Of a stretch of 64,000 nucleotides of DNA, positions 1 to 51,202 are shown in pieces. The notes under the pieces were generated by a model that was given only the letters and a program-made list of their open reading frames with translations, was not told where the DNA came from and ran no database searches. The first letter of the stretch is position 1; every line of letters begins with the position of its first letter. The position numbers and the translations under genes were made by a program. Origin of the DNA: Polytrichum commune (taxonomy: Eukaryota; Streptophyta; Polytrichopsida; Polytrichales; Polytrichaceae); NCBI GenBank assembly GCA_950295325.1, contig OX485809.1:8246001-8310000 (forward strand), read 5' to 3'.

Positions 1-563
1 AGTCGGAGTGCTTCCAAATGGCTTAGCCGCAAACGGATTGTTTGCTTGATTAGTTGTTCCAAACGGGTTTGTTGTTGCTCCAAAAGGGTTTGAAGTGGCT
101 GCTGCACCAAAAGGGCTCGGTGTGGACGCCCCAAAGGCTGTGACCAAACAATCATACACTCGATTAGTCTACTCTCCCTCATTTTCCTTGCTTGTAGCCC
201 AATACCTCACAAACTATATCCATCCAAAAGGAAATATATCTTTTCACCGCCTCCTCTACACCAATCTTCCACACTAACTTCTCTTCCAACTTTAGGGTTC
301 GATTCAAACTACTCACACCTCGCTCCACACACTTCAACCCTCCGCCTTAAATAATTGCACTGCCTTCCTACAACGATAATTCCATTCATCGCCTTCCTTC
401 CACTCACTCACCCACAACCCCACAAAACTCCTAACTCAACCTATCCTCACACGGACTATGTTCACTCCATCGATCATCCACATCATTATCAATACGTCAC
501 ACCACTCCCACGCTCAAATGCCATCGGGACAAGGAACCACTTACGGCTGCTCGATCCGAACAT
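1..563 (-). CDS. NUP98-like nucleoporin, 5' end only (two exons, runs off the left edge)
   Basis: This is the N-terminal start of a second FG nucleoporin. Exon 1 is 545-563 (19 coding bases: M-F-G-S-S-S plus one base of the next codon). The donor lies at 543-544, and exon 2 starts at 137 and stays open to base 1. The joined peptide begins MFGSSSPFGAS and continues with closely spaced PFG/NPFG units and an NNPFAAKPFGS stretch, the pattern at the N-terminus of plant NUP98 proteins. The start exon and intron 1 are almost identical to those of the complete gene at 10401-22735, but exon 2 differs after the first ten bases. It reads away from that gene, so the two are divergent. Whether the rest encodes NUP98 alone, a NUP98-NUP96 fusion or a broken copy cannot be seen. 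A functional N-terminus is likely because frame and splice sites are intact. Confidence 0.75.
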
Positions 564-2060
564 TTCAGCCCCACGGATCAACCCGCTCTATTCACAGATT
601 CCTGTCGTCACCACAAACAAACCACGTCAGCTTCAACAAGACTACTCCATCCTTTTGCCCAACTTGCGCAATGGATGTTCACATTTCTCTTCATACATCC
701 AACACTCCAAGGACATAACTTAACGCTACCATAACGCCTTCTCCAATCGCACAGCTAATCCACATAAATCATCAATAACCTAACCCTCCAACGTCCTACC
801 ACCACCCAGGTCATCAACAGGATGTCAGGAACCCCAACGCTGGTTACATCCGAAATACTGTTAATTCGTCGAATGAAACTCAATTTTGATTCCTCGATGT
901 GCCACCCTGCTAAATTATTTCAACCCAGCTTACAAATGTCCACGCCAACTCGTACGCTTCCACAACTGGCAGTGCACAGCTACCCTTCCCGGTGCCGATC
1001 AAAAATGTAAAAACTACCATAAAACTCACTCTGGAATAACAGTAGCCAATCTTCACTCCGCCTACTAACTTCGTTACTTACCTACAGCAACTACACAACT
1101 GACTTCACCCCACGCTACAGCCACTATTAAACTGCAAACCAATCCACAAACGCAGTTCTAGATGCCCTGCGAAATGCACACCAGGATATAGCGACCATTC
1201 AAATATCCCGTCGTTGCTCGCGCTTCAGCGGATCCGCGAAGGCAACAAAGCCTGACACAGCTCAACTAAAGCTAAAACAAGCTTTGGCCCTTTTACTGTC
1301 ACAATACAATAAATTAGGGTTTCCAACAACCGCATCGGCCCCTCTGGCCCGAACACACAACCGATAACTTCACATGCTGCAGATCCCAACCTCCTCTATC
1401 GATAACCCGTACATTCCAGATTGAGGGACGAGAACCTGCACCTACGAACACTCCCGTTGTCTAGACGCTGCCCCCACTCCTGAGATAATTAGGGCAATTG
1501 GGTCACGATGATAAGGATCGCCCGCGCTGTCCGCCAGCCCAATCAACCAAAAAGCCGTATAAACTGCCTAGACCAGATGACAGCTCGACCGACATGGCGC
1601 TCTACCTGGAGCTGCAGGGTGACATTGCCTCACCTAGGGTTTGCCAGCTTCCCGAGGCTCTAGAGACGCATGCTGCCCGCTGGGCGTGTGGGTGATTCCG
1701 GAGATGCGAATTGCGGAGGCTCTTCCAGCTTCAGAGCAGCGTGGGCGAGCAAGAATGTTTGGGAAATAGGTGCAAGTGCGACCGAAGAAGCATAATAAGG
1801 AGGGAGGCAGAGCATCGAATGCAATAGTAGCGTAGTTTTTACATGGGCTGCGTGCTGCGTGCGGCCGACGACTGCCTCCCTGCCTGCCTGCCTGCCTGCC
1901 GACCTTCGTCTCTCTTCTCTCCCTTGCCGAGCCTGCTCTTCAAGTTCGCCGGTAGAAGTCTCACTCCGCAGCCCTGGTTCCCATCTTCGGAGCCTGGGAA
2001 CCCTTGGGAACCTCCCTAAACACACACGTACTTTCTATTGGGAACGGAGTTTGCCCCCCA
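128..2060 (-). repeat. Left arm of a large inverted repeat (NUP98 promoter/leader region)
   Basis: Reverse-complemented, this stretch matches ~8870-10837. By eye the match is almost perfect over ~138-720 (one difference seen in ~220 bases checked), roughly 95% over ~720-1140, and roughly 85-90% from ~1140 to 1650. Beyond that it fades in the GC-richer segment ending near 2060. It holds exon 1, intron 1 and the upstream leader of the left NUP98-like gene. Telo-box-like AAACCCTA motifs are on the minus strand. A (TGCC)n run lies at about 1876-1900. Apparent ORFs here on either strand are non-coding shadows. Confidence 0.9.
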
Positions 2061-6252: not shown

Positions 6253-7327
6253 CTCATAACACTCTCAAACATACTCATGCGAATATATCATTTAGCAAAG
6301 TTGAATGCCAAGCATCACGAGGTGGCACTAATAATCAAGTTGTTGATCAATAATGTAACTTAACATACACCTCAAAATAGGGTAAGTGACACTTACACAT
6401 GTGACGCTATAAACCATAAACAATGTAGTGAAAGTATGGATTATTGGTTTTGATATGGATTTTGGATAAAAATAAAAGAACATATATGAATTTTAAATAT
6501 TCAAAGTTGGATTTTTTTTCATATGCATCTTCTAGAGGATGTCAAAGTTCATTGATTGGATGATGAATGTCTCTCGTATTGAGTTTGAATGCCATTTTTT
6601 CAAGCATGTTTGGTTCAGCGTGTTACCCAACATGCGAAAGATAGCTCGTACTTACAATGGGTAGTAAAATGTATCTCCTCACTTGTATCTCAATGACCTT
6701 CTACAAGCATCAACTCCACTTTAGAGCATCGTTCTCACTCAAATCAAAGCCAAAACCTAATACGACTTGCACCTATATGTTCTTGACACATAAACGAATT
6801 CTCCACACAAAGTGGGCCAAGGAGTCTACTTGTTAACTTTGATGTGGTGGTCTATAATGCTCGCGTCCACCTTGTGTGTGTGCACTCCTCATCGCATGCC
6901 AAGTTTGTTGTTGTTGTGGCAAGCTAACCTTTCTCTTTCGAAGTGTCTATTCGTGTTCAATGTTTGGTATTTTTGACTAGGATAACGTAATCAATATATT
7001 GATTATGGTACAATTGGTATATTCTACGTTGTCATCCATTTTAAGTACTTGGTAGAGGACTATGTAGTTTAAGCCTTGCTATCCAAGATCACCGGTGAAC
7101 ATAGTGGCATTTCAAAAGCAAGGTGAAGATAGTGACATTTGTTGTTTCCCTCGGTGGGTACATTAGTAAGGTGTAGAGAGTGTTAGGAGGAATTATTGTA
7201 TTAGCCGTATTGCTTTACTATGCCATTAACCATTTGTGTTCATTTAATTTAACACTAGTTCTTGCATAGGCCAAGGAGGTGGACACACGTGTCGATTTGT
7301 TTGAGGTTGCATAGGTGGCAAAGGTTG
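6250..7327. other. AT-rich spacer, nothing recognised
   Basis: No coding exon, RNA gene or complete transposon end was recognised in this interval. Confidence 0.5.
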
Positions 7328-7816
7328 GAGTCACTTCAAACATGAGACTGAGAGCCTGTGACCATTGCACTGCAAGCTATCTCATTGGTGGAAAAAAGTG
7401 GAGCCGGTCCAAGTTCGCTTCACATTACGCTTTAGGGACGAATGGAGTATGTGAATGCAAGATGGATGTAAAGTCTACATGGATTCCTACATGGCATCGA
7501 ACATATCATGTTTCATGGTCACTTGGACTATTTTCAAAAACCATCTCTTGGAGGGTGGCCTAACACAAAACTGGGAGACCGTGGCAATGCTCAACACAAT
7601 TGATTTACTCTATTTTATCATGTGTGAGGACCCACATGAATATAAATGTCTTGAAATAGCATTTGATTGAGGGCCTGGTCACATATGACTTCACACTCCA
7701 CTTGAGGATATGTGACCACCATGATCTTGAAAGTGTCTTGAGACAACTTTTGGACACTTTCTTTGGGCTCTCACAATTTCATGGTCACAACTCTTGGCTC
7801 GTGTGCGAAGTGGCCC
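7328..7816 (+). mobile_element. Tourist-like MITE, family A, copy 1
   Basis: About 490 bp, related along its length to 43902-44400 and 47017-47515. The left terminus is decayed (GTCACTTC for GGCCACTTC), while the right terminus GCGAAGTGGCCC is intact and followed by TAA. Internal landmarks shared with the other copies are a GTGTGAGGACCC segment and a GGACACTTTCTT segment. The short ORFs inside are not genes. Confidence 0.75.
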
Positions 7817-7910
7817 TAAATGTTCTTGTATGGAGAGAAGTTGTTTTTTTCTCATGTATTGTTGTGCCATGTGTATGAACTTCAAGGTTTTTGCATTAAT
7901 CCTTTTTGGC

Positions 7911-8869: not shown

Positions 8870-10837
8870 TGGGGCGTGTTCCCCAAGGTTCCCAGGCCTC
8901 CCCCCACGCTCCCAAGGATCCCATCGTTCCCATACGATCCCCAAGTTCCCATGGTTATCAGAAGATCCCCCAGGGTTCCCATAGGATCTCCCAAGTTCCC
9001 AAGGTTCCCTGCAGGGACTAGGGATTCCGAGTCGTCTCTCTTCTCTGGCGACATTCGAACTTGAAGAGCAGGCTTGGCAAGGAAGAGAAGGCAGCAGGCA
9101 GTCGTCGGCACCACGCAGCACGCAGCCCATGTAAAAACTACGCTACCATTGCATTCCGTGCTCTGCTTCCCTGCTTACCATGCGTCTTTGTCGCACTTCC
9201 ACGCATGTCCCACACTTTCTTACTCGCCCACGCTCCTCTGTCGCTGGAATAGCCCCCGCAATTCGCTTGTCTTGAGTCGCCCGCACGCCCAGGGGCAGCC
9301 ATGCGTCTCCAGAGCCCCAGGAAGCTAGGTAAACCCTAGGTGAGGCAATGCCTTACTCCAACTTCAGGCAGAGCGCCGTGTCGCCCAAGCCGGGCCATTG
9401 GCTCTTGACAGTTTGTACCTGTTTGTTGATTGCGTGGGCGATCCCTGTTATCATTACCAGATGCCCTAATTATGTTGGGAGTCCTTGGAGTGTCTGGGCA
9501 GAGGGAGTGTTTGTATGTGCAGGTTTTCGTTGCTCAATCTGGGATATATACGGGTTTTCGGATAGAGGAGGTTGTGATCTGCAGCATGTGAAGTTATCGG
9601 TTGTGTGTTCGGGCCAGAGGGGCCGATGCGGTTGTTGGAAACCCTAATTTATTGTATTGCGACAGTGGGAGAGCCAAAGCTTGTTTTAGCTTCAGTTGAG
9701 AGCTGTGTAAGGCTTATGTTGCCTTCGCGGATCCGCTGAAGCGCGAGCAACGACGGGGTATTTGAACGGTCGCTATATCCTGGTGTGCATTTCGCAGGGC
9801 ATCCAGAACTGATTATATGGATTGGTTTGCAGTTTCATAGTGGCTGTAGCGCGGGGTGAAGTCAGTTGTGTAGTTGCTGTAGGCAAGTAACGAAGTTAGT
9901 AGGCTCAGTGAAGATTGGCTACTGTCATTCCAGAATGAGTTTTATGGTAGTTTTTACATTTTTGATCGGCATCGGGAAGGGTAGCTGTGCACTGCCAGTT
10001 GTGGAAGCGTACGAGTTGGCGTGGACATTTGTAAGCTGGGTTGAAATAATTTAGCAGGGTGGCAAATCGAGGAATCAAAATTGAGTTTCATCCGACGAAT
10101 TAACGGTATTTCGAATGTAACCAGCGTTGGGGTTCCTGATATCCTGTTGATGACCTGGGTGGTGGTAGGGCGTTGGAGGGATAGGTTATTAATGACTTAT
10201 GTGGATTAGCTGTGCGATTGGGGAAGGCGTTATGTTAGCGTTAAGTTATGTCCTTGGAGTGTTGGATGTATGAAGAGAAATGTGAACATCCATTGCGCAA
10301 GTTGGGCAAAAGGATGGAGTAGTCTTGTTGAAGCTGACGTGGTTTGTTTGTGGTGACGACAGGAATCTGTGAATAGAGCGGGTTGATCCGTGGGGCTGAA
10401 ATGTTCGGATCGAGCAGCCGTAAGTGGTTCCTTGTCCCGATGGCATTTGAGCATGGGAGTGGTGTGACGTATTGATAATGATGTGGATGATCGATGGAGT
10501 GAACATAGTCCGTGTGAGGATAGGTTGAGTTAGGAGTTTTTGTGGGGTTGTGGGTGAGTGAGTGGAAGGAAGGCGATGAATGGAATTATCGTTGTAGGAA
10601 GGCAGTGCAATTATTTAAGGCGGAGGGTTGAAGTGTGTGGAGCGAGGTGTGAGTAGTTTGAATCGAACCCTAAAGTTGGAAGAAAAGTTAGTGTGGAAGA
10701 TTGGTGTAGAGGAGGCGGTGAAAAGATATATTTCCTTTTGGATGGATATAGTTTGTGAGGTATTGGGCTACAAGCAAGGAAAATGAGGGAGAGTAGACTA
10801 ATCGAGTGTATGATTGTTTGGTCACAGCCTTTGGGGC
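8870..10837 (+). repeat. Right arm of a large inverted repeat (NUP98-NUP96 promoter/leader region)
   Basis: Reverse complement of ~128-2060. The outer part (8880-9010) is a degenerate GTTCCCA-rich minisatellite. The middle is GC-richer and probably holds the promoter. The inner part contains the 5' leader, the 19-base start exon, intron 1 and the first ten bases of exon 2. Homology to the left arm stops at 10837, inside exon 2. Confidence 0.9.
9010..10400 (+). promoter_or_regulatory. Putative promoter and 5' leader of the NUP98-NUP96 gene
   Basis: Upstream of the start codon at 10401, telo-box-like AAACCCTA motifs occur near 9331 and 9643, elements typical of plant housekeeping promoters. 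A possible 5'UTR donor (AG/GTAAACCC) lies at about 9327-9336. The ATG near 9301 is not the start: its equivalent in the left arm is followed by an in-frame stop after three codons, so this segment is leader or intron. The transcription start was not located. Confidence 0.4.
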
Positions 10838-13800
10838 TACTCAGGCACCTACTTTTGGAGCGTCCTCTTCTGCATTCGGTGGTTCCACATCAACCCCTGC
10901 ATTTGGTAATCCATTATTCTCAATAAGGGGGTCTGTTTCAGTTTAGGAGTAGGTGTGTGGTTATGCCGCTCCCTTGCGCACCGGATGTTGGAGAGCTGGA
11001 TATTGTGCAGTCTAGATTTGTTTTGTGATTCTATACATATTCTGTACTGATGGAGCATACATGGTCTATCTGTGTGGGATTGTCTCATCCCTAGATGTTG
11101 GAACTTGTTGCATTACTTTTGGGAGGAGTTTGCAAGAGTTTCATGCTGGTGTAGTTCTTTGTCCATGTATCAGCCCCGAGGAGGTTGTTAGTTCACCTGT
11201 GCTCTTGGAAGTGAAAGAACATCTTTGCTGTCTCTTGCTATGTTGATTTGTCTCCTTTTCAAGTTTTATATATTTTAAAGAAAACTTACAGATATTGTTG
11301 TGCAGGAGCTTTTGGTCAAAAACCTGCATCGCCCTTTGGTAGCTTTGGTTCAACCACACCAGCACAAAATCCATTCGGTTCTCCATCCTTTGGGCAGTCA
11401 CAACCTGCTTTTGGTAGCCAGCCATTTGGGTCCACAACTCCAGCATTTGGGGCACAGTCAGCGCCAGCATTTGGAAGTGCAAACAGTTCACTGTTTAGAA
11501 GCTCATCTTTTGGAGCCTCATCTTCCCCAGCTTTTGGGTCCACCTCTAGTCCTGCATTTGGGTCCACCTCTAGTCCTGCGTTTGGGGCATCAACTCCTGC
11601 ATTTGGGGCATCAGCTCCTGCGTTTGGGGCATCAGCTCCTGCGTTTGGGGCATCAGCTCCTGCGTTTGGGGCATCAGCTCCTGCCTTTGGGGCATCTGCT
11701 CCTGCATTTGGGAGCACGCCTACATTTGGGCAAAGTGCACCTGCATTTGGAGCAAGTTCTACGCCAGCCTTTGGTAGCACCCCTGCTGCATCACCCTTTG
11801 GTACCATCAACTCTGTACCTGTGCATTTTAGGATTGGTCTCCTGTTCATTCCATCTTTACTGTGTCATCTTTGAAGTGAAGGTTGTGGGTTGCTGCTTAT
11901 GACTCAAATCATAGAAATCTTCAAATTGGATGTAATTTAATTTAATTTTTTTATTAATTTTTATTTTATGCACGGAAACACTGCTCATGGCAATGTCCTT
12001 GCTTTGATGTTTGTCGATTCAGTTCGTAATGCTTTGGTTTGAACTTCTGGACCTGTACTGCAATAAGGGTTCTCTTCCTTTCCCTACCTCATGTGAATCA
12101 CCACTTTGGGTGATGAAGGTGTGCTCGACTTCGTCTCCCACACCTGAGAATGGCAGTAGGGTAGGTTCTTGGATCGATTGCCTACCACTCTTTGTGTGTG
12201 CTTAAAAGCCTTGCGATATTCTTGAGTTCTTCAATTTAGCATGATGAGCAGGACACACTTTGTTGTTCCTGGATGCTGTGAAATGCTAATTGTTGTTTAT
12301 GCCCTGATGTGTACAGGAGCCCCTGCAGCAGCAAATACATTTGGGAGTTTTGGAGCTACAACGTTTGGAGGTCAGCAACGGGTAGGGAGCAGGGCAACCC
12401 CATATGCAGTTACCAATGACACAGATGCTGGTGTAGGTGGGCAACCTGGAAAGTTCTTGTGCATCTCTGCTATGCCTGCTTACAAAAACAAAAGTCAAGA
12501 GGAGCTAAGATGGGAAGATTACCAAGCAGGCGATAAAGGTACAAAATTTCCTCTTCAGTTTTGACAAGTCTTGAGGTGTTATTAGAGGTGTATAGGGACT
12601 TGTATAAGTGGTAAGTAAAAGAGTTGTCGGCCATCTTCATTGTCTCTTCTAGTGAAAGCCTCTCTTCAATTTCACTAAATAGTTTTATCGAGGTGATGAT
12701 TGCTCATTTATGACTTTGACATTCATGAGACCTTGATAAAATCCAAGCTCACAGACAAACAGAGTTGTATTACTCTTAGAAGATGAACATGAAGCATGAG
12801 CTCATTCAATTGAATAAGTGTCTGTGTGAGAATGTATTCATCGGTAGGCACAGATTTGAGTGCGTCCATGTTTGATTTCACAGATGATTTGTGTATGGCA
12901 GGTGGTCCAAATTCAGCTAGCCCTCAACCACCAACAACAGGTGGAATTTTTGGCCAGTCTCAACAGACTACAGCATCTTCTACTCCATTTGGAGCGGCCA
13001 CCACCCCATTTGGCCAAGCAGCAACTCCTAATCCATTTGCTGCAAGCTCAACTCCAAACTTGTTTGGGGGTGCAAAACCTACATTTGGCAGCCCCAGTAC
13101 ACCTGCACCTGCATTTGGTGCCACATCTACTGCAGCATTTGGATCCACAGCTTTTGGGTCCAGTGCACCTGCATTTGGAGCTGCAGCAAGTGCTCCTGCA
13201 TTTGGAGCAGGGAGTTCAGCCACAGCCTTTGGGTCAACCCTGCCTGCGTTTGGGCAAAGTTCGGCTTCAGCGTTTGGGGGCGCAACATTTGGATCAACAA
13301 CTCCTTCATTGTTTGGGCAGACAACACCTGCCTTTGGGGCATCATCTCCTGCATTTGGTGCAGCTTCAAGTAGTCCAGCTTTCGGGAGTCAGAGTTCTGC
13401 AGCATTTGGAGGAAGTAGTATATTTGGGAGCACTCAAATGTCAGCTGCAGGGGGTCTATTTTCTACTCCTGCATCCCAGCCTTTTGGTACTACTACTCCT
13501 GTGTTCGGTCAAAGTCAGCCTGCATTTGGGTCGAATTTGTTCAGCAACACAACTACCCCTGGTTCTATTTTTGGGCAAACAAAGCCAGCAGGATTGGCAC
13601 AATCTTCGGTATGTAATGGACATCTTTTGATTGTGTTGCAATTGGTTTTCTTTGGAATTCCGTTTGGGCCATCCATTATCACTTCTGGTCAAATTGGAAG
13701 ATGTTCTGCAATTTGGTCAAACTTTTATTGACCTGCATTCCTGTGGGTGTGAGCTTGGAACTGGTAGGGGTTGTTTTCATTTTTGATGTGTAGCAAGGAA

Positions 13801-16800
13801 TCACATAGTTCTGGTGCCTGCAGCTAGCAATTTTGTCTGACTTAATGCTATTCATGTTTGTGAGTGGTATACATTGCTTAGCTAGGTTTTTGAGAGATTT
13901 TGAGAGTGTTTCTGTATCCTTGATAATTACATGTTTGCGTAAGTTAAAACTTACAAAACAGAACAAATTGGTGGTCAGTAGAGAATGACAGTATTTTGTA
14001 CTTGTCTTCCAGTTAGTTAAGATCACCTTTGATTATTATGTTATGTTAGTGCAAATGTCTAACTCCTTGTTTGCTGTGTTTACATTGGCAGTCTTCTTTG
14101 ACATTTGGTGGTTTTGGATCAACACCAGCTTCTCAACCACCAAGTGCGTTCAACTTTCCCACACAGCAAGGTAAGACTGAAACTGCTGAGACGTGCATCT
14201 ATAACTTACAGATAGCACACTGTACCCTACATAATGCTTAGCAAGTTCCGGAGATCTGTTTTGAGGTCCAACATCCTGTTATGATCTTTTCTTGGCTCTT
14301 GTTTTGCAAACTGGGGACATGCGGGGACATTCATGTTCTAATAGGAATTTTTGTCTATGGTTGTTCTTACAGTGTTTCAGAAGCTTTCTAAACGTACTAT
14401 TTATTCTGAATAGAAGGTTTGATTTATTCACATGTCCTCAATTCTTGTATATGTGCATGTGCAGGAGGGACAAATATTTTTGGGGCGACACCATCTCCAG
14501 CTTTTGGTCAGCAGAATGCACTTGGCCAATCTCAGTATGTGTTCAAATACTCCTGAAGTAGTTACCTTGCTTTTTTTGAGTCAAGATACAGGTCCTAGGG
14601 GATGTAGGGATACAATTTAATGCTTAAAATTCTCATATAAAACTTCTTTTGAGACAGAGCTTAATCGAAATGGTTCAGTCAGAATGTAGACATAAAGACA
14701 CCTAGAAGTTGAACTCTCAGCAGCACATCTTTTCAAATACTACACATCCTGTGTAATTAGATCCTGGATCAGTGTGGAGCCTGTCTTCAGCAAAATTTTC
14801 CCCCTTGTTGAGATTGTTTAATTGAAAATGAACATGTCTTTAATTTGGGAGGTCCAGAATGCCAATAACTGTTCTTGCCTAGCAGCATAAAATCTGGTTT
14901 TGTGAAGTTAAGACTAAACTTAGCAAAGCTTATTTTCTTTTTATGTATGGTTCTTAGAGTCTGTTTTATTGTAGTCATAAAATACTGTTTCTACAGTTCA
15001 AGGCCCTATTGATAAGTTTGATGTCTTGTGCATTTAGGCCTGCACAGAACATGATGGCGGCCACGTCTACTCCAGTGACAAATCCCTTTGGAACTTTACC
15101 TGCTATGCCCCAAATGATGATTGGGCGAAGCGCTGGATCTGGTCCTTCGCTTCAGTATGGAATTTCAAGCATGCCTGTAAGTTGGGAACAATTATATATT
15201 GAGGAACCCAAGATACTTTCAAGCATGAGGAGGGGAGAGTCTAATTAGGCTCCTGCTAAATTGTTGAAACTTGTTCATTTGTTCACTTTGAAGGACTGTC
15301 AGAGTCAAGTGAGTGAGACTTTGAGAGATATTGATGCAGGTATCAGAAAAGCCAGCAGAAGTGCGAGTTAATTCTCTCTTGACACCCCGCTCCATCACCC
15401 AACGATCGAAGGTTCGCATGCATGCACGGCGATATCATCCTAGTAAAGACAGTCCAAAAGTAAGTGCAGTCTTTATGCTATATGAATGATCGGTTTCTCA
15501 CTTGCATCATTGTTCACATTTTAGTCTTCACATTTTGTCCCTTCTGTATATTGTTCTTGCTTTCCCGTTTTGCACAAGAGAGTATGGATTCTTGGGTTTT
15601 CTAGGTTGGGACATCATTTGATGGCTGTTGACATATATAAATATATGTTGTGCTGGTATTGCATTTGTAGATAGCCTTCTTCAGTGATGGTGATGAAGCC
15701 CCCTCAACACCCAAGGCAGATGTGATGTTTGTTCCACGGGAGAATCCCCGTGCATTGTTTATTCGCCAGCCAGATCAGTCTCCTGCTACACCATCAGCAG
15801 TGAAGAGAACCCCGGATATTAGAGAAATTGCTACTCCGGTACATGTGAATGGTATGTGCAGAGTTTGAATGCATATTCTATCCATCATATTAATATGTTA
15901 TAATACATATAGGATTTGAAATGCATTGTGCAGGAAGTACATGAGATCTTGTAGTGACACCATTCCTCTTTCTAATGTATAGGTGTTGATGAAGATAAGG
16001 AGACAGTGGGTGGTGATTCAGTGCCTCTGCCCATTCCAGAAAGTATGCTTCAAACTCTTACTAGTCTTTGTGACAAAGTATTGTATCTGGCCCTATGAAG
16101 GCTTTATTGAAGTAAGGTTGCGATGGATTAGGTGTTCTCTTGAAAAGAGTTTGTTGCTTTACTGGGCCTGATAGTAGGAGGTGTATGTTTCCAGGTCCGG
16201 GAGATAGCTGGAAAGGCCCTGGAATCAGAAGTGAGGCAGTTGCTACTGAGACTGTAACAATAACCCATACTAAGTCCCCAGAAAAACCAGTAGCAAAACA
16301 GGTTCCCAAAGTGAATGGGTTCCGGGAGGAGCACAATCACAGAGGAAATGGATATATTTCTATTACAGGTATGTAAGGGCAATCAAATGGGATGGTTGAT
16401 GACATACTTTGCATTTAATTCTTTATAGTCACGTTCTTCATGTATTTGCCTGCTGCGTAGTAAGAAGGATCATGTCAGCTTTGTCTGTTGACTTTCTGTG
16501 CAATGATTGAAAGTCTCTTCATTTTCTGTGGTAATAGGTCACCGAGCTGGGGAAGCCGCAATTGCCTACGAGCATGGTGCTGATATAGAAGCTTTGATGC
16601 CGAAGTTGCGGCACTCAGATTACTTCACAGAGCCAAAAGTGCAAGAACTTGCTGCAATGGAGCGTGCAGAACCTGGATTTTGTCGAAGAGTGGCTGACTT
16701 TGTGGTTGGGCGCAAGGTGAGGAATTTTTATTGCTGTTGCTTGTACTCTTGCCAACTGTATTTTTACTGCTGTTGTCTGCCTCAAACTATTTCCTATTCA

Positions 16801-19800
16801 AGAATTGCAGACGCCAATCATACCACGATGTCTTCAACTGGATGTTTTGCAGTCAAGGTTTGAAGATAGATTTGTGTTTATTGCAAACATCAAAGTATAT
16901 TGAGATGTATGTGAAAGTGGCTGCATATCTAAAATTTCCGGGTGTTTTTGATTCCTGACCAGCTCTATGGCCAAGTCAAGTTTCTTGGGGAGACTGATGT
17001 TCGTCGACTCGACTTAGAGAGTATTATTCAGTTCAACAAATGCGAGGTTCTTGTCTATATGGATGAAAACAAGAAGCCAGCTATAGGCCAAGGATTGAAC
17101 AAACCAGCAGAAGTTACACTTTTGAATGTTAAGTACATGGACAAGAAAACTGGCCAGTACCATTTAGACGGACCAGAAGTTGAAAGGTTTGAGAAACGGC
17201 TGAAGAAAAAGACCGAGGAACAGGGAGCTGAGTTTATTTCCTATAATGGGCTCAAAGGAGAATGGAAGTTTCGAGTGAAGCACTTCAGTCGATATGGACT
17301 AGATTTTGACTCTGATGAAGAAGATGCTACCGTGAGAAACCAAGAGAAGGCTCTCACATTGGCAGGTCGGTGATTCCAGGGTTTCAAGAATCATGAATCT
17401 CCTCATCATAACATAAACTCATTGACTAACTTGGTTTCTTATATTTGAGTTAGGGGGTGAGGTGGTTTGAAATTAAAAATAGGTCATTAGTAAACAGTTT
17501 GCAGAAGACATGGAAAATTAAATAGTAGGATGTTTGATTTATGTTTCCACAGCAAACTTGAACAGCCTTGTTACACTCACCTGACTGTCATCCACACAGG
17601 TAATAATGACATGGAAGGCGTTGAGCAGGATGCAGAAGACTCCATGTATGATTCACCACAGAAAGTCTTTGACATTACACCAGAATCAGGAGTTGACATG
17701 GATGAAGACACTGATAATGATACTGTTTATGGGACTGCCCGCCAGGCTGCACTTTCACACTCCCTTCCTGCACATCTGCATCTTGACCCTGTGAAAATGC
17801 AACAGATGCGTGCTCTCTTCTTCAATGAAGGTAGTTATGGCCTTTTTGTTTTTATAAAACATGTACCCTGAAGCTAAAAGTGAGTCTAGTAGTATACAGC
17901 AGTGCACAGTTGCAGTCAATTACAATCTTTTGAGATGCATGTGGCAATGAAGTGGTGAACTTGTTTAAGTATCTGGTAGATCCTGGAAATCCTGTCTACC
18001 GTCAGAGGTGTTACTTTTGGCTGGAGAAGTGATTTTCTTTCTGTAGTTTCTGTAGAACATATGATGTTGCAGCTGTAGTCAAGAACATGAACATGCGCTG
18101 TTGGTTTTCCCCAGGTATTTAGGATGATCTCGTGCATAACGTTCTCTCTTTGTAAAAATAAGATGGTAGCTGGGTTGTGATTGGGTTGGCGGGAGGGGGG
18201 CGCTAAAGGATAAATACTTCATTATGGTCATGAATTTGTGTTGGATCTAAGTGCTCTGACTTTCTGGTTTCTTGTTTTGTATTGTTGTTCTCTTTATCCC
18301 CATTAGCAGGTGTCTGTTTTAAATTGTATTAAATCATGTAGACCTGGTCTGTCTACCTCTAGTTGTCAGATCATGACATCTTGCTTGGCACATCTGTCAA
18401 ATAGGTAGACTGAGCTTCTTGGTTTCCAGACTCTTTTAAATGTTGTTTCATCTGAGGTTGAACTCTCTTCCTTGGATTAACAGTTGTGATTTGAAAACCA
18501 GGTGAAGAAGCAGATGATATTGCTCCAGCTGGAGTATATGGCCGCAGGCAATCACGCGCACCAGTTACTCCCTCTGCTCCTGTCAGTTCTAGCAGCCAAT
18601 CGTTTAAAACTCCCAATCAATCTTTCAAAACTCCCAATCAATCATTCAAAACTCCCAATCAATCATTTCAAACTCCACAAAAGGATGCTGCTGGCGATGA
18701 CTCCGAAGGGCGTCCAGCATGGCCCCAACGATCTTCTCCTTGGAAGAGTGGTCCTGCAAAGCAGATGAGAGTCTCCCCTCTTACGTCATGGAAACGATCT
18801 TCTGCCTATTCAGCTCTGGAGGAAGGGCTCTCTGGCCGACAAACACCTCTCTTGGACTTGTCTCCCTCTAGGTTTGTATAATGGACAATGTTACTTCAAG
18901 AACAGGCTTTGGGTGTTTTCTAGATATAGACAGCGGGACCTTCAAGGCTTACTTAATAATGGTTGATTCTCTCTTCTAATTGATTTGAACATTACATTCT
19001 TATTTGTGAATCCTAGTGGTTACTAGGCAGCTATACAATGTGCACGTGTTGTGTCACTCTTGATGTGGTGGAAACTGGATCACACACACAAAAAACTTGT
19101 GTATTTTTGACGAGGTTGCTGAGCTGATGAAATGGTATTGTGTCATAAATTTAGGAGCCTATGGAATGTCTATTCTTTTCTTTCCATCCTTACTAATGGA
19201 GTTCGTTTGTTGCAGATCCCCTCTCTTGGCACTGACAATGACTGGAGAGCACGAGAGATCAGGTGTGAAAGCAGGTGTCAAGAGGCCTCGAGGAAGTAGC
19301 CTCTGGCTGGATGCAACTGAGCGGCCTAGTTCACTTGCTCTTGGTCGCTCTGACCATATTGCAGATGCTGCATTGTTTTTAGGGTGCTCCTTTCGAGTGG
19401 GTTGGGGCCCAAATGGTGTCTTTTTCCATAGTGCCACACGTTCAGGACAGGATGGGACAAATAGAGGATTGTCTTCATGCATTCAGTTTGAAAGGGTTGC
19501 ACTTGATCGGACCGTGCGTGATGATGGAGGTGCTGTTAGAGATGAACTTGTGGAGCTGCAGTTTGTGTCACCACTGTCCCTCCACATGTCAATGAGTCAG
19601 GTATTGTTACCATTCATTTCTTTTCTATGATTATTAGTTTGCAGGCTTTGTTAGACAAGGACTCATAGAAGGCATGTAGAATCTTTTGCCAATTTATAAA
19701 GATTGTACTGAAGAGGTGTTCCTACTCAAATTTGCACTAACGGGAAAGATGGAACTCTAGGTGGTGGACAACCCCCTGCAGGTAGGAGCTGGCAATCTTA

Positions 19801-22735
19801 AGTTACGCACTTTGGTGTGTAGCCCAGTTAATCTACCTAGTTTGTGCATGGAATATGAAGACCTTGTGCAGAAACAGCATGAAGTGGTAGGAGTTGGGGA
19901 GAAGAATCGTGTTGTTCTCCGCCATCAAAGTATGGTCTGGCAGCTGATAAGTGTCCTCTTTTCTGAATCTTCACACATACCAGAAGAAATGGAAGATGAA
20001 GTAGAGGAAGTGTGCGAGATAGCAAAGAGATCATTGGACGGCCCAGATCGGTCAGCAGAGCTTTTTCTTCGAAGAGCAGACTTCAGTAGCTGGCTACAGG
20101 ATAATGTGGGTCACTTGGTGGATGAGGAATTAGGGCAACTCAAGGGCAATAAGTATTTGAAGCAGATATTCACATTCTTGACAGGACGAAAGCTGGATGA
20201 AGCTGTTGAGAAGGCCATAGGCAGCGGAGATGTCCGGCTCTCTACTTTGTTAAGCCAGGCTGGTGGCCCAGTGGACATACGTACTGATATTGCCACTCAG
20301 CTGGAGGTTTGGGCTAGTGAGGATCTGGATCAGTCCCTTATAGAGACAGATCGCACAGCGATATATAAACTTCTTGCAGGTGAGTGTTTGTAAGAACTAT
20401 TTCCACAGTGCCCTGCACCTCATGTTGGGTCAAAGACTAAAATTGTAACCCCGCAAATAACATTTATAGGCAGTGTGTTAGCTTGGGCATGTTGCGTCCA
20501 ATCAATCCACATTAGAGATTCTCATCCGTGATCTACTTGTGGTTCAATGAATTCTGGAATGTGTTGTTCTATTACAGTATGATGAATAGTTGGTGTGCCT
20601 GCAGGTGACCTTGGGAGTGCCCTTGCTGGTCGGAACATCGACTGGAAGCGCTTTCTGGGTCTTGTAATGTGGTACCAACTTGGTCCTGACACAGATGTAC
20701 CCTCCATTGTTGATACATATGAGGAACTTCTGGATCAAAATGAAGCACCAAGACCAATACCTAAGTATGTAGAAGAAGGAGCGACACTGAACAACACCCA
20801 CGTTGACTGCGATATATATGATACAACATACTATCTCATGCTATTACATGCAGAGAAGGGAAAGGATACAATAAATACGATGAAAATGTTATCCTCATCC
20901 TCCTCAACGTTTGATCGGTTGGACCATAGGCTGGCTTGGCATCAACAAGGCCTCCTGCATGCAATTGGGGTTCTGGAAACACAGCAGCTGACTTCGCTGC
21001 ACATGAATTTTGTCAGTCAGCTGTTGTCAGTGGGCCTTTGTCATTGGGCTCTCTATGTTGTTCTGCATATGCCCTGGTCTTCTGAACACCCAGGCCTCCA
21101 CGAAAAGGTATCCTGTGCATCTCAAGTATGCATTTGTGCTCTCTACAGGTATTTTTACGTTGTTGTGGAGTAAAAATTGCATAGATCAAATTTGGGGGTC
21201 CGCAAAGCACTAATATAGAAACTCTATGATGAAACTATTAAGGATGGCTTCGTTTGTGAAGGTTGTGAAAGAGATCTTAAATCAGTACTGTGAGACCTGG
21301 AGCACTTCAGATTCACAGCAAGAGTTTCTGAAAGATGACCTTGGGATTCCATTGGAGTGGCTTCACGAAGCATTGGTAAGTTAAAAAAACAACGCGCATC
21401 TGAAGTTTAGGGAGGAAGTTGATGTTTCTGACATGTTCTATGAGGAGGACGAATCATGCCTAGCATGCAATTTGGTGTCTCTTTTTTAGAAGGTTTTGTG
21501 GAATTTTTTGTAGTCAGTACTCGCATTATATCAACTTTATTAGGGCATTGTTCAGTTTGGTTGTTGTGTAAATATTGGGGTTTTATTCTAGTTCCTCTAG
21601 GTGATGAGTGTTGATAATTGTATGATCAACACTTTCTGATGTTTGGTGGCAGGCACTATATTGGCGTTACTCTCGAAATACCAAGAAGGAACTTGAGCAT
21701 TTGATTAAATGCTGCCAATGGAGGAATGCTCATATCTTGTTTATGACAACAGTAGCTGCTACATTATTCCTCAATTGTAAGCATTCTTTACATTGTTTCT
21801 TGACTGTTTCATGCATTGTGTACAGATTCTTGTGGTATGTGTCTTTCAAGTAAACATTGTAGTCACAGTTTCTCTTTTAACCGGAGTCAACTCCTAGATT
21901 CTCAGAAGAATGACTGGACCTTTTGTGCAGCTGAGCACTCTGAAATCTGGCAATTTGCTAGTCAATTGGATGGTCATTTGACAGAGGTGGAGGACTGGGA
22001 CCTGGGAGCAGGCATCTACATTGACTTTCTAACGTTAAAGAACAGCTTTGTTGACACTTTGGGTCCAATTGAAGAACTGGTATGGTGCCTGATGTCTTCT
22101 GTGATTACTTGCTTGCCTACAATTTTTGTATCTGTGGTGTGGTGTATAGTATTTTCGTCTTTATTCATTTCTTGAGTTGCATCTGTGGTGGCAAAATTAG
22201 GATACCTTTGAGAAGAGGATTGAGTTCTCTGGACTGTTTTTCGAGCGCCTTAAGGAGTCGCAAGCTTTGTGGAAATCAAAATGGCTCAATGACGCCAGGT
22301 ATCACCACTTTCAAGATATTTATTAATTTCAAATTTTCAGAGTTTCCATTTTCTTCTAGCTTTCAACAGTGGGGAATTTCAAGACTTGTGGCTTTTTGGA
22401 GTCAACAATTGCTAACCTGCCAGTTCTCTTCATCATCTCAATATTTGGAATCATGATGTATATTCTACTGCATAGCTTGCTCCAAGTATGGATGTCCTCT
22501 AAAATTTATTTTGTGGAACCTTTTTGTTTGCAGAGTGGCATATTCAAAAATGGCCGATGAGATTGCAGCACTTCTCTTAGCTGAAGCTAAGTCACAGTCT
22601 GTAGACATTGGTGTTCAAATGAGGATGTTTGATACTGTTCTTGATGCACCCATGCCAGAGGATGCTAGGATGTGTCGTGTACAAGGAGCCACCGCAGCCT
22701 TCACGAAGTGGATTACCAAAGAAGTGCCTGCGTGA
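10401..22735 (+). CDS. NUP98-NUP96: Fused NUP98-NUP96 nucleoporin precursor (24 exons, 1899 aa)
   Basis: Nuclear pore precursor that cuts itself into NUP98 (mobile FG nucleoporin) and NUP96 (Y-complex scaffold). Exons: 10401-10419, 10828-10905, 11306-11800, 12317-12538, 12902-13608, 14092-14170, 14465-14534, 15038-15176, 15340-15459, 15671-15851, 15983-16042, 16195-16368, 16538-16716, 16963-17365, 17600-17830, 18502-18871, 19216-19600, 19782-20379, 20605-21107, 21262-21375, 21653-21776, 21931-22079, 22201-22298, 22534-22735. They total 5700 bases in one frame. FG/PAFG repeats fill residues 1-197 and ~272-550. A GLEBS motif (RAE1/GLE2 binding) is at ~198-271, ending [20 protein letters not shown]. 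The autopeptidase (S59) domain is ~785-955 with HF/SRYG at 17281-17298, cutting between F949 and S950. NUP96 starts before [20 protein letters not shown] (~1030) and includes [10 protein letters not shown]. The start is fixed by MFGSSSPFG across intron 1. Exon 18 could also start at 19761, in frame. All introns are GT-AG. Confidence 0.92.
11575..11700 (+). repeat. In-frame 21-bp tandem array in the FG region
   Basis: Six back-to-back 21-bp units inside exon 3, each coding P-A-F-G-A-S-A/T. Units three to five are identical, suggesting recent expansion and likely length variation. It adds FG units without changing frame. Confidence 0.9.
18599..18685 (+). repeat. In-frame 21-bp tandem repeat in the NUP96 N-terminal linker
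   Basis: Four 7-residue units (SFKTPNQ three times, then a diverged SFQTPQK) at about residues 1086-1113 of the fusion. They lie in the disordered linker between the NUP96 N-terminal motif and the folded scaffold. Each unit has a Thr-Pro pair, a possible phosphorylation site (inference). Confidence 0.85.
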
Positions 22736-31065: not shown

Positions 31066-34038
31066 ATGGACGCGCTCGCGCTCATGGGCGCCACCGTGCC
31101 CTCGGCTGCCAGCATCAATTGGAAGAGCAGCAGGAGCAGCAGCAGGAGCAATGTCGCCTCTGCTGTAACGCCAGTGCGAGTGGTGAGCAGCAGCAGCAGC
31201 AGACAGTCGGAGGAGAAAGCGGGAGGAGGAGTCGCTCACGAGAACAAGGAGCAACAAAGCGACCGACCTGCTCAATCTCGTCCTGTACGTCTTTTTGGGT
31301 TTCTTGCGTGCTTTTTTTTTTTTTTTTTTTCCTTTCTCTTTTCCGATTTCTCCCGTTTTGTAGTTTTGTAGTTTTCGATTTTTCCGAATTTGGAGCTGGA
31401 TATTGAAAGTTCATGGAGTTTCTCCTGTGGTCGCTCCTGTAGGACTAGTCTTTGAATAATTAACACGTTTTTCAAAGGTTTCTGAGCTAATGCCACATGC
31501 TCATCGTACCCATGAAGTAGGCACCGAAAGAAAAGAAGGAAAAAAGAAAGACGACTCCGATGTTGCACCTGCGTGAAGTATAGTGTTGCTCATTTTCGAG
31601 TCGGTATGAATGTGCATGTACTCCTGAAACGGGGTTTACTAGAATTAGAAGGTTCCTGAAGACTCCTGCCACCTTTCGAAGTTGAAGCTGGCGGGCACCT
31701 ATCTCCCAAAGGCTGAAAATTATCTAGTTCATCCGGATACCCCGGTGTAATTTAGAGAGTATGGGAATTTCTTGAGAGTGGAAAGTGATGTAGAGGGTTG
31801 ATTCTCTCTCCTTAACAATGATCAGTCGACATTTGGGCTTTCTGGGTGAGAGGAGGAAGAGAGTGACCGCCCTGCCCAGTGTCTTCCTGTATGTCTTGTT
31901 GCTTTGGTTACTTGTTTTCCTGAGGGGTTAGGTTGGGTTGGATGATTTTGGAATAAATTTCGATTGTGTATGGAGTTGCTCCTATGGTCACTACCGTTAA
32001 ATGATTCTCTCAATTAATTTTGAGCCAATACTGCATGCTCGTCTTGCACATGAAGTCCACATGTATACCTATCCTTGCCCCAACTGATCATTTGGTTGAG
32101 AGCAAGACAACCCTCTCAATTCTTGAGAGTAAGAAATGACATAGGGGGCTGTTGCCTCTCTTACAATAATTATCGGTGAGTGGGCAACAAGGATTTGGAA
32201 ACTTTTAGGGCTTTATGGGCGGGAGGACGAGGAAAGAGTCCATCAATCTCTTCCTGTACGTCTTGTAGCTTTGCCCGATTGCTTGCTTTGTCTGTGTTTT
32301 TTTGCTTGAAGATTCGAATGTTTATGGAGTTGCTATGGTAGTTTCTGTTTGCTTCCTATGGATTGCTTTTTGTTGAGTACGTAACTCCTAATATCTCTAG
32401 ATTTACTATCTGTATAGATTTTAAATTTCTGATATACTTGTTACCTTTATTTGTGAATGCCCTTTGAACGTCGATACTTGCAAGGATATATCTTGTTGGA
32501 AGCTTACTTGCCTGATTTTTCTGTTTTTGTTTTTTGGGAATCGATTTGAATGGTGTATGGAATTGCTATGCTATGGGAGGCAATGAAGGGTGGTTGAATT
32601 ATGGATTGGCATTGTGGTTTAGCAGGAGGCATGGACGTTGCGCAGGCAGATGCTGTGCGGAGTTTGTGGATTAGGGTTGGCACTTGCCACGACAGGAGGA
32701 CCTGCAGATGACCAGGCCGAGGCTTTAGATAAGGATCCAGGTCCTTGCAGGAACTGCCAGGGTGCTGGTGCTGTGCCTTGTATGTTGCCTTCACCTTTTG
32801 CTGACCTTTTCGTGAATTGTTACCATGTGTAGTCCAATTTTATAGTTATTAGTTCTTAGTACGTGAAAGCAAACGAATTGTTATTGCAAAAAGAAATAAA
32901 ATTACAATCAGGACACTGGATCCTCAAGAAAGAGCTTTGGTCAAAGAGGACCTGGCTGGAAAGACTGTACTATGTGTAGTCCAAATTTGGGTGCACGACC
33001 TTTGTTGGGATGTCCTTATCCACCCTCAATCTTTCAAGTTTTAACCAAAACTGCCAAATTTAGGCCCCCTTTACACTAGAGAGGTTGAGAGCTCAAACAA
33101 TGGAGGCTTCTCATCGGCAGAAAGGAGCCTCTTACGCGTGCTTGTTTATTCAAAGCCCCTTTACACTTGGATCTTTCAGCTTTGGAGCTGGAACTCTTAC
33201 TGGGCTTACAACACTTAGATGGTGCCTTGATGGATATCATGTGGAATGAGTACCACAAGCTCTTGGTCATTTTGGACAAGCTCTTGATCAAAATCCTAAG
33301 CTGCCTTATGGATGTACAAGTAGGGTTGTCTTACCAGTCACTCGTAGAATGTGGTCAGCAGTGAGCTCATTTTCGGCACTGACTGAAATTTCTTGTCATG
33401 GGGTCAGGTGATATGTGTGGCGGTACAGGAAAGTGGAAAGCATTGAACAGGAAGCGCCCAAAGGATGTGTATGAGTACACAGAGTGCCCCAACTGCTATG
33501 GTATGGCTTTTCTCTTACGTCTGGTGGTTGGCTAGGCTATAAACCTCTGCATCGTATTTGTCATCAATTGTGGATTCCCCTCATTTAGAATGATCTAGGT
33601 TGAAGAGGAATGGCTTTTGTCAAAGGGTCATCAAAAATTTCTGGCCTTATTGTATCATGGTAGGGGTTTTTGGTCCCTTAAAAGTTTGCAGCTCGTTTGT
33701 GATGGTGGTGTTTGGGTGTATACAATGTAAGTGATGTCTCTTTTGGTTGTAGAATCAATATGTTTTGTTAATTTTTGTTTGTTTGTTTTTTATCCCTTGA
33801 ATCCGTTGAGGGTCAGGTCGAATATTTAGTTGCGAAGTTTGTTGACTGTTGTAGTTTACAGTGACTTGCTATGAAGAATTAATGATGGTGGTTGTTTCTG
33901 GTTGCAGGAAGGGGGAAGCTGGTCTGTCCAATTTGTTTAGGAACAGGGCAAGCTAATAACAAGGGGTTGCTGCGGAGACCCGAATCCAAAGCCTTGTTGG
34001 ATCAAATGTACCATGGGCGCATCTTACCCAGCATGTAG
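31066..34038 (+). CDS. Plastid DnaJ-type zinc-finger protein, PSA2/EDA3-like (4 exons, 198 aa)
   Basis: Probable thylakoid-lumen protein with a DnaJ-like cysteine-rich domain, a family linked to photosystem I assembly and thiol/disulfide chemistry. Exons are 31066-31284, 32626-32779, 33408-33500 and 33908-34038 (597 bases, one frame). Residues 1-73 are Ser/Arg/Ala-rich, as in chloroplast transit peptides. A twin-arginine plus hydrophobic segment ([16 protein letters not shown], 79-94) resembles a Tat lumen signal. Four CxxCxGxG motifs follow: CRNCQGAG (114), CDMCGGTG (125), CPNCYGRG (151) and CPICLGTG (162), enough for two zinc sites. There is no J domain. The tail [24 protein letters not shown] is characteristic of the plant PSA2-like group as I recall it. 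Exon 2 has a tandem acceptor (TTAGCAG), so one Gln may be added. Intron 1 contains decayed copies of the exon 1 end. Assignment to PSA2 rather than a related DnaJ-zinc-finger protein is likely but not certain. Confidence 0.85.
31215..32600 (+). repeat. Decayed tandem repeat of the exon 1/intron 1 junction
   Basis: A ~370-base unit recurs with starts near 31220, 31835 and 32210, plus a weaker trace near 32515. Each of the first three carries a version of TCTCGTCCT/GTACGTCTT, i.e. the end of exon 1 with a usable GT donor (31285, about 31888, about 32256), followed by a TATGGAGTTGCTCC-like segment. Confidence 0.7.
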
Positions 34039-35582: not shown

Positions 35583-38500
35583 TCACCGGGGGGTCACTTC
35601 AGGCTGCTGGGAGGCCTGGGGCTGTGGGAAGCCACTTGTCCTCAACATTTCCACCACCGCTGTCATCGACGGTCGATCGTTGGGATTCTCTTTGGTGCAA
35701 AGCACGGCCGTCCTCAACACGCGAAGCATCTGCGATTTCTGCAAATCGCTGGTCCCAAGTAGAAGCACAGGGTCCAGTACCGCTTCGCCTAGATTTTCAC
35801 TTTTTTCTTTCACCATCCCCCGCACCCATGCGGCAATGTGCATGGGGTCGCCGAAGCTGGGATCCACCGGCGGCTTCCCCGTCAGAAGCTCCAACAGTAG
35901 GATGCCATACGAGTATACATCAACTTTCGGTGAGAGCATTGTGCCGAATCCAGCCTCTGCAGCACCAAAACCCTAACCATGTCAGAAAGAGAATGCTGCA
36001 TCTGCCACTGACAATAAATGCTTCCAGGATGTGAATTCGAAGAAGCATGTGTTTTTTTGATGAAATCGCACAAACAGTTGGTATGTATCCTTCCCGGGAG
36101 CTGTGTTGCCGCAGGCCACTGACAATCCAGGTCTCCCGGTTTTGTAAGCTTTCGGAGAGATTTTTATGCAAGTGTTCTTGTGATAGAATTGCGCAAACAT
36201 CTAATTTGGTATGTATTCTTACCGGGAGCGATGTATCCGTAGGTTCCTGTAACAACCGCTGAAGATGTCGCAGGTTTGTCCTTCTTCATGTCCATCACCT
36301 TGGCGATACCGAAATCTGAGATGTGCGCCTCCAAGTCATTGTCGAGCAGCACATTACTTGCCTTGATGTCTCGGTGAATAATTGAAGGAATGTAATCATG
36401 GTGAAGGTAATTCAAGCCATGAGCTACACCCTCCGCAATTCGAAGCCTCGTGGGCCAATCCATCACCACCCCTGCCTCCTTGTTATGCAACGCATCATGC
36501 AGGTCACCATTCGAGACATAGTCGTACAAAAGCAAACCAATGTCTCCCCACTTGCAAAACCCCAGCAGTTTCACCAGGTTCCGGTGCTTGGCACTCCCAA
36601 TAGTTTCAATCTCTGTCAAAAAGCTTTTGTAGACACGGTTGTTGGTGTCCAGTCCAACAATCTTTTTCACAACAATGGGAGTGCCTGACATTAAGATGGC
36701 CTTGTACACCGTCCCATAACCACCCTTTCCTATGATGCACTTGTCACTCAGGTTTCCTGTGGCCTCCATGATCTCATCGAAGGAGATTGTGTTCCCCGGG
36801 GAGCTCATAACCTCGATGCTTGGCTGCGAAGTAAGTTTTCTTCGGTTTCTCGGGTAGAACCACCATAACCCTAAGACAGTCCCCACAGCAAGCAAGAATC
36901 CAATGCTACAAAGAGCAATGGCCATCCATACCCACCACTTGAGCTTCTTCCCATCCGATGCAGCTGGGGTTATCGAGGTTGTGTTTACACATAGGTTTTG
37001 GCTTGAATATTGTCTACAGAGGTCTGGATTGCCAGCAAAATCACTTGGAGTGGTGTTCAGAAATTGCACCCATTCGGAAGGGAGGGAACCACTGAGGTTA
37101 TTATATGAGACATTCACACTGGATAAAGATTGCATGTCTCCAAGTGAACTTGGTACAACACCAGAGAGGTTATTGTGCGAGAGGTCAAGCACAACAAGCT
37201 GGTCAAGCTTGCTCAACTCCGAAGGAATTGCTCCAGAGAATTGCCCATAGCTAAGGTTAAGATTTTCCAAAGTTGAAAGTGTGCCAATTTCGGATGGTAT
37301 CGATCCGCCGAACGGGTTATGTGCGAGGTCGAGGAAGAGCATGTTGTTGAATTGCACAAATATGCTTGCTACTATTCCAGTGAAATTGTTGTCATCCAAA
37401 TACATCGTCTGCAGGCGGGTTAGGTTTCCAAGCGCTGAGGACACAGTTCCATTCAAGGAGTTTGAGCTCAAATCCAGTGTAAAGAGCTTCGTGCAGCTGG
37501 AAATCGCTGATGGAACCTGTCCTGTGAATTTGTTCGTTGACAAGTTTAAGAGCTGGAGGTTAGCAAGCTGTGCGAATGGCAGAGGGGAGAGATCTCCCGA
37601 GAGGTGGTTGTCTCCGAGATTTAAGTTGCTGAGGTTACTGTTAGCCCCAAGGTTTTTTGGCAACACACCTCGAAGCTGGTTGCTTGAAAGATCGATCAAG
37701 TTCAATGCCCCTCCCTTGCCAAACCCATCCGGGAGGCTGGTGAATCGGTTGTAAGCAGCTCGAAATCTCGTCAAGGTTACACATGAGGACAAAGACACCG
37801 GTATGGCACCCTCGAACTCGTTGCCTAGGATGTCAAGGAATGTTAACCCTCCGAAATTGCAAAGCCCTTCAGGCAGAGTGCCGTTGAAGGAATTATTCCG
37901 GATGTCAAGATAGGTAAGGTTGCTGAACATGCCAAGCTTAGGGGGTAAAGGCCCGCTCATAAGGTTATCGTAGAAGAAAATTTGTTGCAACGTGGTGATG
38001 TTGGCCACTCCGGTAGGGATTGACCCTGTCAATCTATTAGTGTAAAAAACCATCTCAAATAAGCTCTTGCAGTTCGCAATCTCCACAGGAAGTGGCCCTG
38101 AGAAATTGTTTGTGCCCATTCTGAGGCTTTGCAGCTGTGTCAACTTCCCAATCTCTGGGGCTATCCCTCCGGAGAATTGGTTGTTTGACAAGTAAAAAAT
38201 AGTGAGAAGTGTGCAGTTATAAATCTCTGTGGGGACAGGTCCAGACAGGGAGTTGTTATGCACATCGAAGCGTTGAAGGTTGTATAACTGCCCAAATGAT
38301 TTGGGGATGGGGCCGGTTAGGTTGTTGACATAGATGACAAAGTCTGTCATGTTGGATAAGTTGCCGAGCTCGGGAGGAATCTCTCCAGTGAGCTCGTTCT
38401 GGTATAAGTTGAGGTACACGAGGTTTCGCAGCTTCCCAAGCTCCTTTGGTATGATACCTGAGAGGTGATTGCTGGATAAGATAAGACTCTGTAAGTTGGT

Positions 38501-43900: not shown

Positions 43901-43901
43901 A

Positions 43902-44400
43902 GGGCCACTTCACACACGAGACTGAGAGCCCGTGGCCATTGCACTTCAAGCACTCTCATTGGTGGAAAAGGCGGAGCCGGTCCAAGTTCACTTCACACTA
44001 CGCTTGAGGGATCAACATAGTATGTGGATGCAAGATGGATGTAAAGTTTACATGGATTCCTACATGGCATCAAATGGATCATGTTTCATGGTCACTTGGA
44101 CTATTTTCAAACACCACCTCTTGGAGGTAGGCCTAACATAAAACCGAGAGATCATGGCACTCCGAATGCTCACAACCGTTGATTTATGCTTTTTAATCAT
44201 GTGTGAGGACCCAAATGAATAGAAATTCACTGAAATATCATTTGGTTGAGGGCCCGGTCACATATGACTACACACTACACTTGAGGGTTCGTGACCACCC
44301 TCCATGATTTTGGAAGTGTCTTGGGACGGCCTTTGGACACTTTCTTTTGGGCTCTCACAACTTCATGGTCTCGACTCTTGACTCGTGTGCGAAGTGGCCC
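43902..44400 (+). mobile_element. Tourist-like MITE, family A, copy 2 (best-preserved ends)
   Basis: 499 bp, begins GGGCCACTTCACACACGAG and ends CTCGTGTGCGAAGTGGCCC, a ~19-base near-perfect inverted pair, flanked by AAA on both sides (43899-43901 and 44401-44403). GGGCC ends with a 3-bp duplication fit a PIF/Harbinger MITE. ORFs inside are shadows. Confidence 0.8.
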
Positions 44401-46935: not shown

Positions 46936-47016
46936 AGGTCTCAAAGGTACAATTGAGGAATCCATTTGTACCGTAAGTACCTAAGGTAAATTTGACAAAT
47001 CCAATTGGTATACTTA

Positions 47017-47515
47017 GAGCCACTTCACACACGAGACTGAGAGCCCTTGACCATTGCACTTCAAGCACTCTCATTGATGGAAAAGGCGGGGCCGGTCCAA
47101 GTTCGCTTCACACTACACTTGATGGACCAACGGAGTATGTGAATGCAAGATGGATGTGAAGTCTACATGGATTCTCACATGGCATCAAATGGGTCATGTT
47201 TCATGGTCACTAGGACTATTTTCAAAAACCTGCCTCTTGGAGGTAGGCCTTACACAAAACCGGGAGACCATGGCACTCCGAATGCTCACAACCGTTGATA
47301 TATCTAATTTGTCATGTGTGAGGACCCGCATGAATAGAAATTCATTGAAATAGCATTTGATTGAGGGCTCAGCCACATGTGGCTTCACACTACACTTGAG
47401 GATCCGTGACCACAATACGTGATTTTTGAAGTTTCTTGGGACAGCCTTTGGACACTTTCTTTTGGGCTCTCACAATTTCATGGTCACGGCTCTAGGTTTG
47501 TGTGTGGAGTGCCCC
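47017..47515 (+). mobile_element. Tourist-like MITE, family A, copy 3
   Basis: Same family and orientation as 43902-44400. The ends GAGCCACTTCACACACGAG and GTGTGGAGTGCCCC are slightly decayed. CTTA precedes and follows the element, consistent with a TTA-containing target duplication in the satellite-like unit. Confidence 0.75.
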
Positions 47516-49787: not shown

Positions 49788-50018
49788 GGTCGAGCTCACT
49801 TGTATATAATGAACCATTGTTCATTTGGAATTTAAATGCACACTTTCTATCATAGGCTTGTGTTTCTTCATGCAGTGCAGGTGTCCTTCGTTGTGTTGTT
49901 GTTGTTGTTGCTACATTGGAAGCTAGTGATTGGCTGGTTTTTTGCTCTTGTAAGCCTTCGTTGGCATTGTTGCATAGCTTTGTGAATTCGGTAGCGTATG
50001 AATTATTAAGGACAAGAT

Positions 50019-51172: not shown

Positions 51173-51202
51173 ATGCCCATGGAAGGCATGTATGTCCGGT
51201 GG

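Follow-up and report, generated by a model that had tools for sequence, protein, structure and literature searches.

A stretch of 64,000 nucleotides from Polytrichum commune (assembly GCA_950295325.1, contig OX485809.1, positions 8,246,001 to 8,310,000; hereafter the window) carries a nucleoporin gene in which NUP98 and NUP96 share a single spliced reading frame. We put the probability at about 0.9 that this is an intact plant NUP98-NUP96 gene which, as judged from its sequence, would encode a self-cutting precursor and has kept the ancestral fusion. The underlying observation, a fused frame of 24 exons with phenylalanine–glycine (FG) repeats, a GLEBS motif, an S59 autopeptidase domain and a NUP96 scaffold, is confirmed. 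A second, inverted NUP98-like gene, whose 5′ end closely matches that of the fusion gene, lies head-to-head with it at the edge of the window.

Rebuilt from the sequence, the fusion gene occupies 10401–22735 on the forward strand, and its 24 exons form one open frame of 1899 amino acids (coding sequence of 5700 nt, with the sole stop codon at its end). All 23 introns have GT–AG borders, as checked twice, and their median size is 235 bp; GC content is 0.483 in the exons and 0.383 in the introns, compared with 0.411 for the whole window. An earlier, sequence-only reading of this DNA had proposed 24 splice-compatible exons in a 1899-codon frame, with exons 13–16 at 16538–18871. Rebuilding gave the same two ends, number of exons, length and span of exons 13–16, and its succession of an MFGSSS start, FG repeats, GLEBS, an HF/SRYG autopeptidase site and a NUP96 scaffold is borne out by the Pfam matches and motif positions. 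The features of the gene are as follows.

10401–22735 (+): NUP98-NUP96 fusion gene, start to stop codon, 24 exons, 1899 amino acids (rebuilt gene model)
10401–10419 (+): exon 1, with the ATG and MFGSSS (gene model and repeat-arm alignment)
10828–10905 (+): exon 2, FG repeats (gene model)
11306–11800 (+): exon 3, FG repeats; a 21-bp tandem array lies at 11574–11712 (gene model and repeat check)
12317–12538 (+): exon 4, GLEBS (Gle2/Rae1-binding) motif, residues 244–266 (gene model and Pfam)
12902–13608 (+): exon 5, FG repeats (gene model)
14092–16368 (+): exons 6–12, last FG motifs and linker, individually 14092–14170, 14465–14534, 15038–15176, 15340–15459, 15671–15851, 15983–16042 and 16195–16368 (gene model)
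16538–16716 (+): exon 13, in which the S59 autopeptidase domain begins (gene model and Pfam)
16963–17365 (+): exon 14, remainder of the S59 domain with the HF/S site (residues 948–950); 3′ edge uncertain
17366–17599 (+): intron 14, 234 bp long in the model adopted here (gene model)
17600–17830 (+): exon 15, first to lie entirely within NUP96; its 5′ edge is uncertain
18502–18871 (+): exon 16, N-terminal region of NUP96, carrying SFKTPNQ repeats (tandem array 18597–18676)
19216–19600 (+): exon 17, in which the match to Arabidopsis NUP96 begins (residue 1220 on)
19782–22735 (+): exons 18–24, NUP96 scaffold domain (Pfam, residues 1432–1712) and C terminus, individually 19782–20379, 20605–21107, 21262–21375, 21653–21776, 21931–22079, 22201–22298 and 22534–22735

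Three Pfam domains follow one another in the canonical order within this one frame: Nup98_GLEBS (residues 244–266, E = 2.3e-8, 34.4 bits against a cut-off of 27), Nucleoporin2/S59 (PF04096; residues 808–954, E = 1.5e-43, 148.9 bits against 28.4) and Nup96 (PF12110; residues 1432–1712, E = 1.4e-73, 248 bits against 25). The E-values exclude chance for all three. An HFSRYG motif starts at residue 948, with HFS at 948–950; the search of the S59 domain against the PDB aligned HFSRYGL to the HFSKYGL of Nup98-Nup96 chains, including the HFS of 7f60_C. In this HisPheSer motif, H879 and S881 are given as the catalytic pair (PMC1560137). FG dipeptides are confined to one side of the HF/S site, 60 lying N-terminal and none C-terminal to it, and the repeats comprise 24 PAFG and no GLFG; the preference is described as PFG, PAFG or xFG in plants and as SLFG or GLFG in fungi (PMC4283134). 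Searches for S59 relatives confirmed none of 23 pattern matches in the genome-contig collection and none of 21 in the viral-contig collection.

The proposed course of events begins with a single mRNA that would be transcribed and spliced across both halves and translated into a precursor of approximately 1899 residues. Its S59 domain would then cut itself at HF/S, between F949 and S950, to release an FG nucleoporin of 949 residues (NUP98, with the GLEBS motif) and a scaffold nucleoporin of approximately 950 residues (NUP96, of the Y complex), both presumably located at the nuclear pore. On the evolutionary side, the lineage would have retained the ancestral fusion, which flowering plants would later have split into separate genes.

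Comparison with solved structures places the gene among plant nucleoporins. The best match of the NUP96 half in the PDB chain search is 9sob_M (634 bits, E = 2.8e-189), followed by a chain with 198 bits, so that this half resembles plant NUP96 more closely than its animal or fungal counterparts. Both halves matched 7f60_C (1817 amino acids) and 7fik_G (1742 amino acids), which we take to be animal Nup98-Nup96 chains, collinearly and in two stretches each; S59 with HFS is followed by NUP96 in the same order, whereas the repeats of the present gene are of the plant type. Yeast NUP145 is far more distant: its S59 domain was matched (8tie_c, 3kep_A), and the Nup145C chains were matched weakly (7tbi_S1, 4xmm_B). 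9SOB is a pore model from Arabidopsis (PMC12626886), which thus supplies the nearest NUP96 (MOS3/SAR3) among solved structures. Arabidopsis nevertheless differs in organization, with NUP98 (NUP98a/b) and NUP96 described at different chromosomal places (PMC1560137).

Such fusions have been described in plants before, and this one is a further example of a published arrangement: a 2021 review reports NUP98-NUP96 fusions in Physcomitrella patens and Chlamydomonas reinhardtii (PMC8685260). Three S59 genes are described in Arabidopsis and three in rice (PMC1560137), and the autopeptidase domain stands at the N-terminal end of the NUP96 proteins listed in PMC2674657, including those of Arabidopsis and rice. 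The presence of S59 on flowering-plant NUP96 is expected if the separate genes derive from a fused ancestor, and we infer such a derivation, with a copy of the domain kept in each. Trypanosoma brucei Nup158, described as a single FG/α-solenoid protein (PMC4758718), likewise unites FG repeats and a NUP96-type scaffold and fits an old fusion; it reportedly lacks these residues and stays uncut, whereas the fusion described here has HFS. The scoring of Nup96-98 as one unit in PMC2951903 does not settle the matter of fusion, and the 'Nup98-Nup96' labels in barley and Apios papers are names from annotation, which we did not count as cases of fusion. Retention of the ancestral fusion, as the sequence-only reading had suggested, is favoured because fusions are on record in a moss and in a green alga and because the NUP96 of Arabidopsis and rice keeps the autopeptidase domain (PMC8685260, PMC2674657, PMC1560137). 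Its further claim of a fused, self-cleaving plant precursor finds support in the anatomy of the gene, namely the frame, the domains and the collinear PDB matches.

Several points weigh against this interpretation and centre on the junction of exons 14 and 15. Intron 14 starts 25 residues past the cut site, inside an acidic tail, and reading through from exon 14 into it meets a stop after two codons. When splice sites were ranked with leave-one-out matrices built from the 23 introns of the fusion gene itself, the donor and the acceptor of intron 14 were each the fourth weakest of 23; taken with the early stop, these weak sites leave room for transcripts, some or even all of them, that encode no more than NUP98. 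NUP96 could also have a start of its own, since an in-frame ATG lies in the open frame upstream of exon 15, at 17530. Pairing GT and AG sites around intron 14 in 120 ways left the entire frame open in 19 cases (giving 1863 to 1933 residues, with HFS at 948 every time), and the alternative pair of donor 17370 and acceptor 17553 also scores fairly well. A frame-open splice is therefore not rare at this position and is weak evidence on its own, and where exactly exons 14 and 15 join is uncertain; their splice is a predicted one. Moreover, the HFS residues by themselves are no proof of cleavage, and ancestral retention, though favoured, rests on the literature. What argues for the fusion is the set of domains, with its order and spacing, together with the published relatives, rather than the open splice alone.

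The early stop, the weak splice sites, the 19 open pairs and the ATG at 17530 would also suit two abutting genes that are fused only in appearance, with the end of NUP98 inside intron 14 and a separate promoter for NUP96, as would the ATTAAA sequences that intron 14 contains at 17472 and 17517 (intron 15 contains one more). We consider such a pair very unlikely: exons 14 and 15 are separated by merely 234 bp, the cut site lies in exon 14 ahead of the junction, as a fused precursor requires, and fused genes have been published from a moss and from a green alga. AATAAA is absent from introns 14 and 15, which says little because none occurs within 665 bases after the stop codon of the gene either. 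The stop and the low ranks of both splice sites would likewise fit a dual RNA route, one compatible with the precursor interpretation, in which splicing of intron 14 would yield the precursor and its retention NUP98 alone with a short tail. Human NUP98-only mRNAs exist. The donor, however, is not weak by consensus, with seven of nine positions matching CAG/GTAAGT, and early read-through stops are common, two codons being the distance to a stop in introns 12 and 20 as well; this route is a possibility that we hold only tentatively. That the fusion was secondarily re-formed out of separate plant genes is highly improbable, given that the HFS site is where it is expected, that moss and green alga fusions are published and that the S59 domain is present on Arabidopsis and rice NUP96.

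What the present locus adds is the inverted, 5′-homogenized neighbour. The sequence-only reading had described the fusion gene correctly and missed this second NUP98-like gene, which begins at 563 on the reverse strand and runs off the window. The two genes stand head-to-head, 9838 bp apart from start codon to start codon, and their 5′ ends form the arms of an inverted repeat.

563–1 (−): second NUP98-like gene, running off the window
545–563 (−): its exon 1, which matches that of the fusion gene exactly
1–137 (−): its exon 2, of different FG sequence, running off the window
128–1885 (−): left arm of the inverted repeat, covering the NUP98-like gene from its 5′ flank through exon 1 and intron 1 to base 10 of exon 2
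9089–10837 (+): right arm, covering the same elements of the fusion gene (5′ flank, exon 1, intron 1 and exon 2 as far as base 10)

The arms, of 1.75 kb, are identical in 1617 of 1769 alignment columns (91.4%) and enclose a spacer of 7203 bp with a GC content of 0.38. Followed in stretches of the right arm with gaps set aside, identity runs through 84.0, 73.6, 88.3, 93.9, 97.0 and 95.0% in successive stretches of 9089–10288, reaches 100% in 10289–10400 and in exon 1, and is 99.5% in each half of intron 1. The first 10 bases of exon 2 are identical, after which 11 of 13 and then 8 of 19 aligned bases agree, and the NUP98-like exon continues with different FG repeats and no stop up to the edge of the window. 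Searches for further copies in the window with the fusion gene masked (tblastn and blastn) gave two hits that we regard as related, this left-end FG exon and the exact exon 1, the FG exon matching the fusion FG domain weakly (best E = 0.70).

A recent whole-gene duplication was rejected as the origin of the left copy, as intron 1 is 99.5% identical yet exon 2 collapses after 10 bases. An intron more alike than the next coding exon is not expected from selection on the protein, and gene conversion, or capture of a block comprising promoter, exon 1 and intron 1, would explain the pattern better. To judge from the alignment, recent gene conversion is the likely cause of the 5′ homogenization; strong constraint on a regulatory intron may instead lie behind the identity of the arms, as may an assembly fault in the inverted repeat. 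P. patens, known by description only, is similar in having NUP98 and NUP96 in one unit and a second NUP98 in the genome; the latter is placed on another chromosome (PMC8685260), in contrast to the head-to-head gene found here. A literature search returned no published Nup98 with a head-to-head arrangement among the matches listed. It is conceivable, though we think it rather unlikely, that the locus is an intermediate of the NUP98/NUP96 gene split, in which a paralogue stands beside a still fused gene and recurrent conversion through the inverted repeat keeps the two 5′ ends alike. If so, the two genes would share their expression as their FG domains drift apart, and the separate genes of flowering plants could then result from loss of one half or the other.

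Elsewhere in the window, a leucine-rich-repeat (LRR) receptor kinase gene lies at 35586–40217 (−), with at least three open stretches and LRR and Pkinase domains, and possible exons of a small cysteine-rich protein were noted by eye at 33398–33502 and 33916–34035 (+). An open frame of 214 codons at 50010–50651 (+) resembles, to judge by eye from a motif, the end of a DDE transposase; it had no Pfam match at E 0.01. A direct repeat of approximately 1.9 kb (51202–53118 and 54347–56256) is 95.8% identical, a minisatellite-like array at 53116–53394 has overlapping pieces of 93–96% identity, and repeats of approximately 500 bp at 7325–7824, 43901–44408 and 47014–47515 are 83–88% alike and are perhaps pieces of mobile elements. 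The window gave no matches in Rfam at gathering thresholds and none with ARAGORN.

The fused plant gene, its cut site apparently intact, represents the condition out of which separate NUP98 and NUP96 genes probably evolved; it also offers a plant system for testing paired production and autocleavage. Its homogenized inverted neighbour suggests that an extra dose of NUP98 could have freed the fusion to split.

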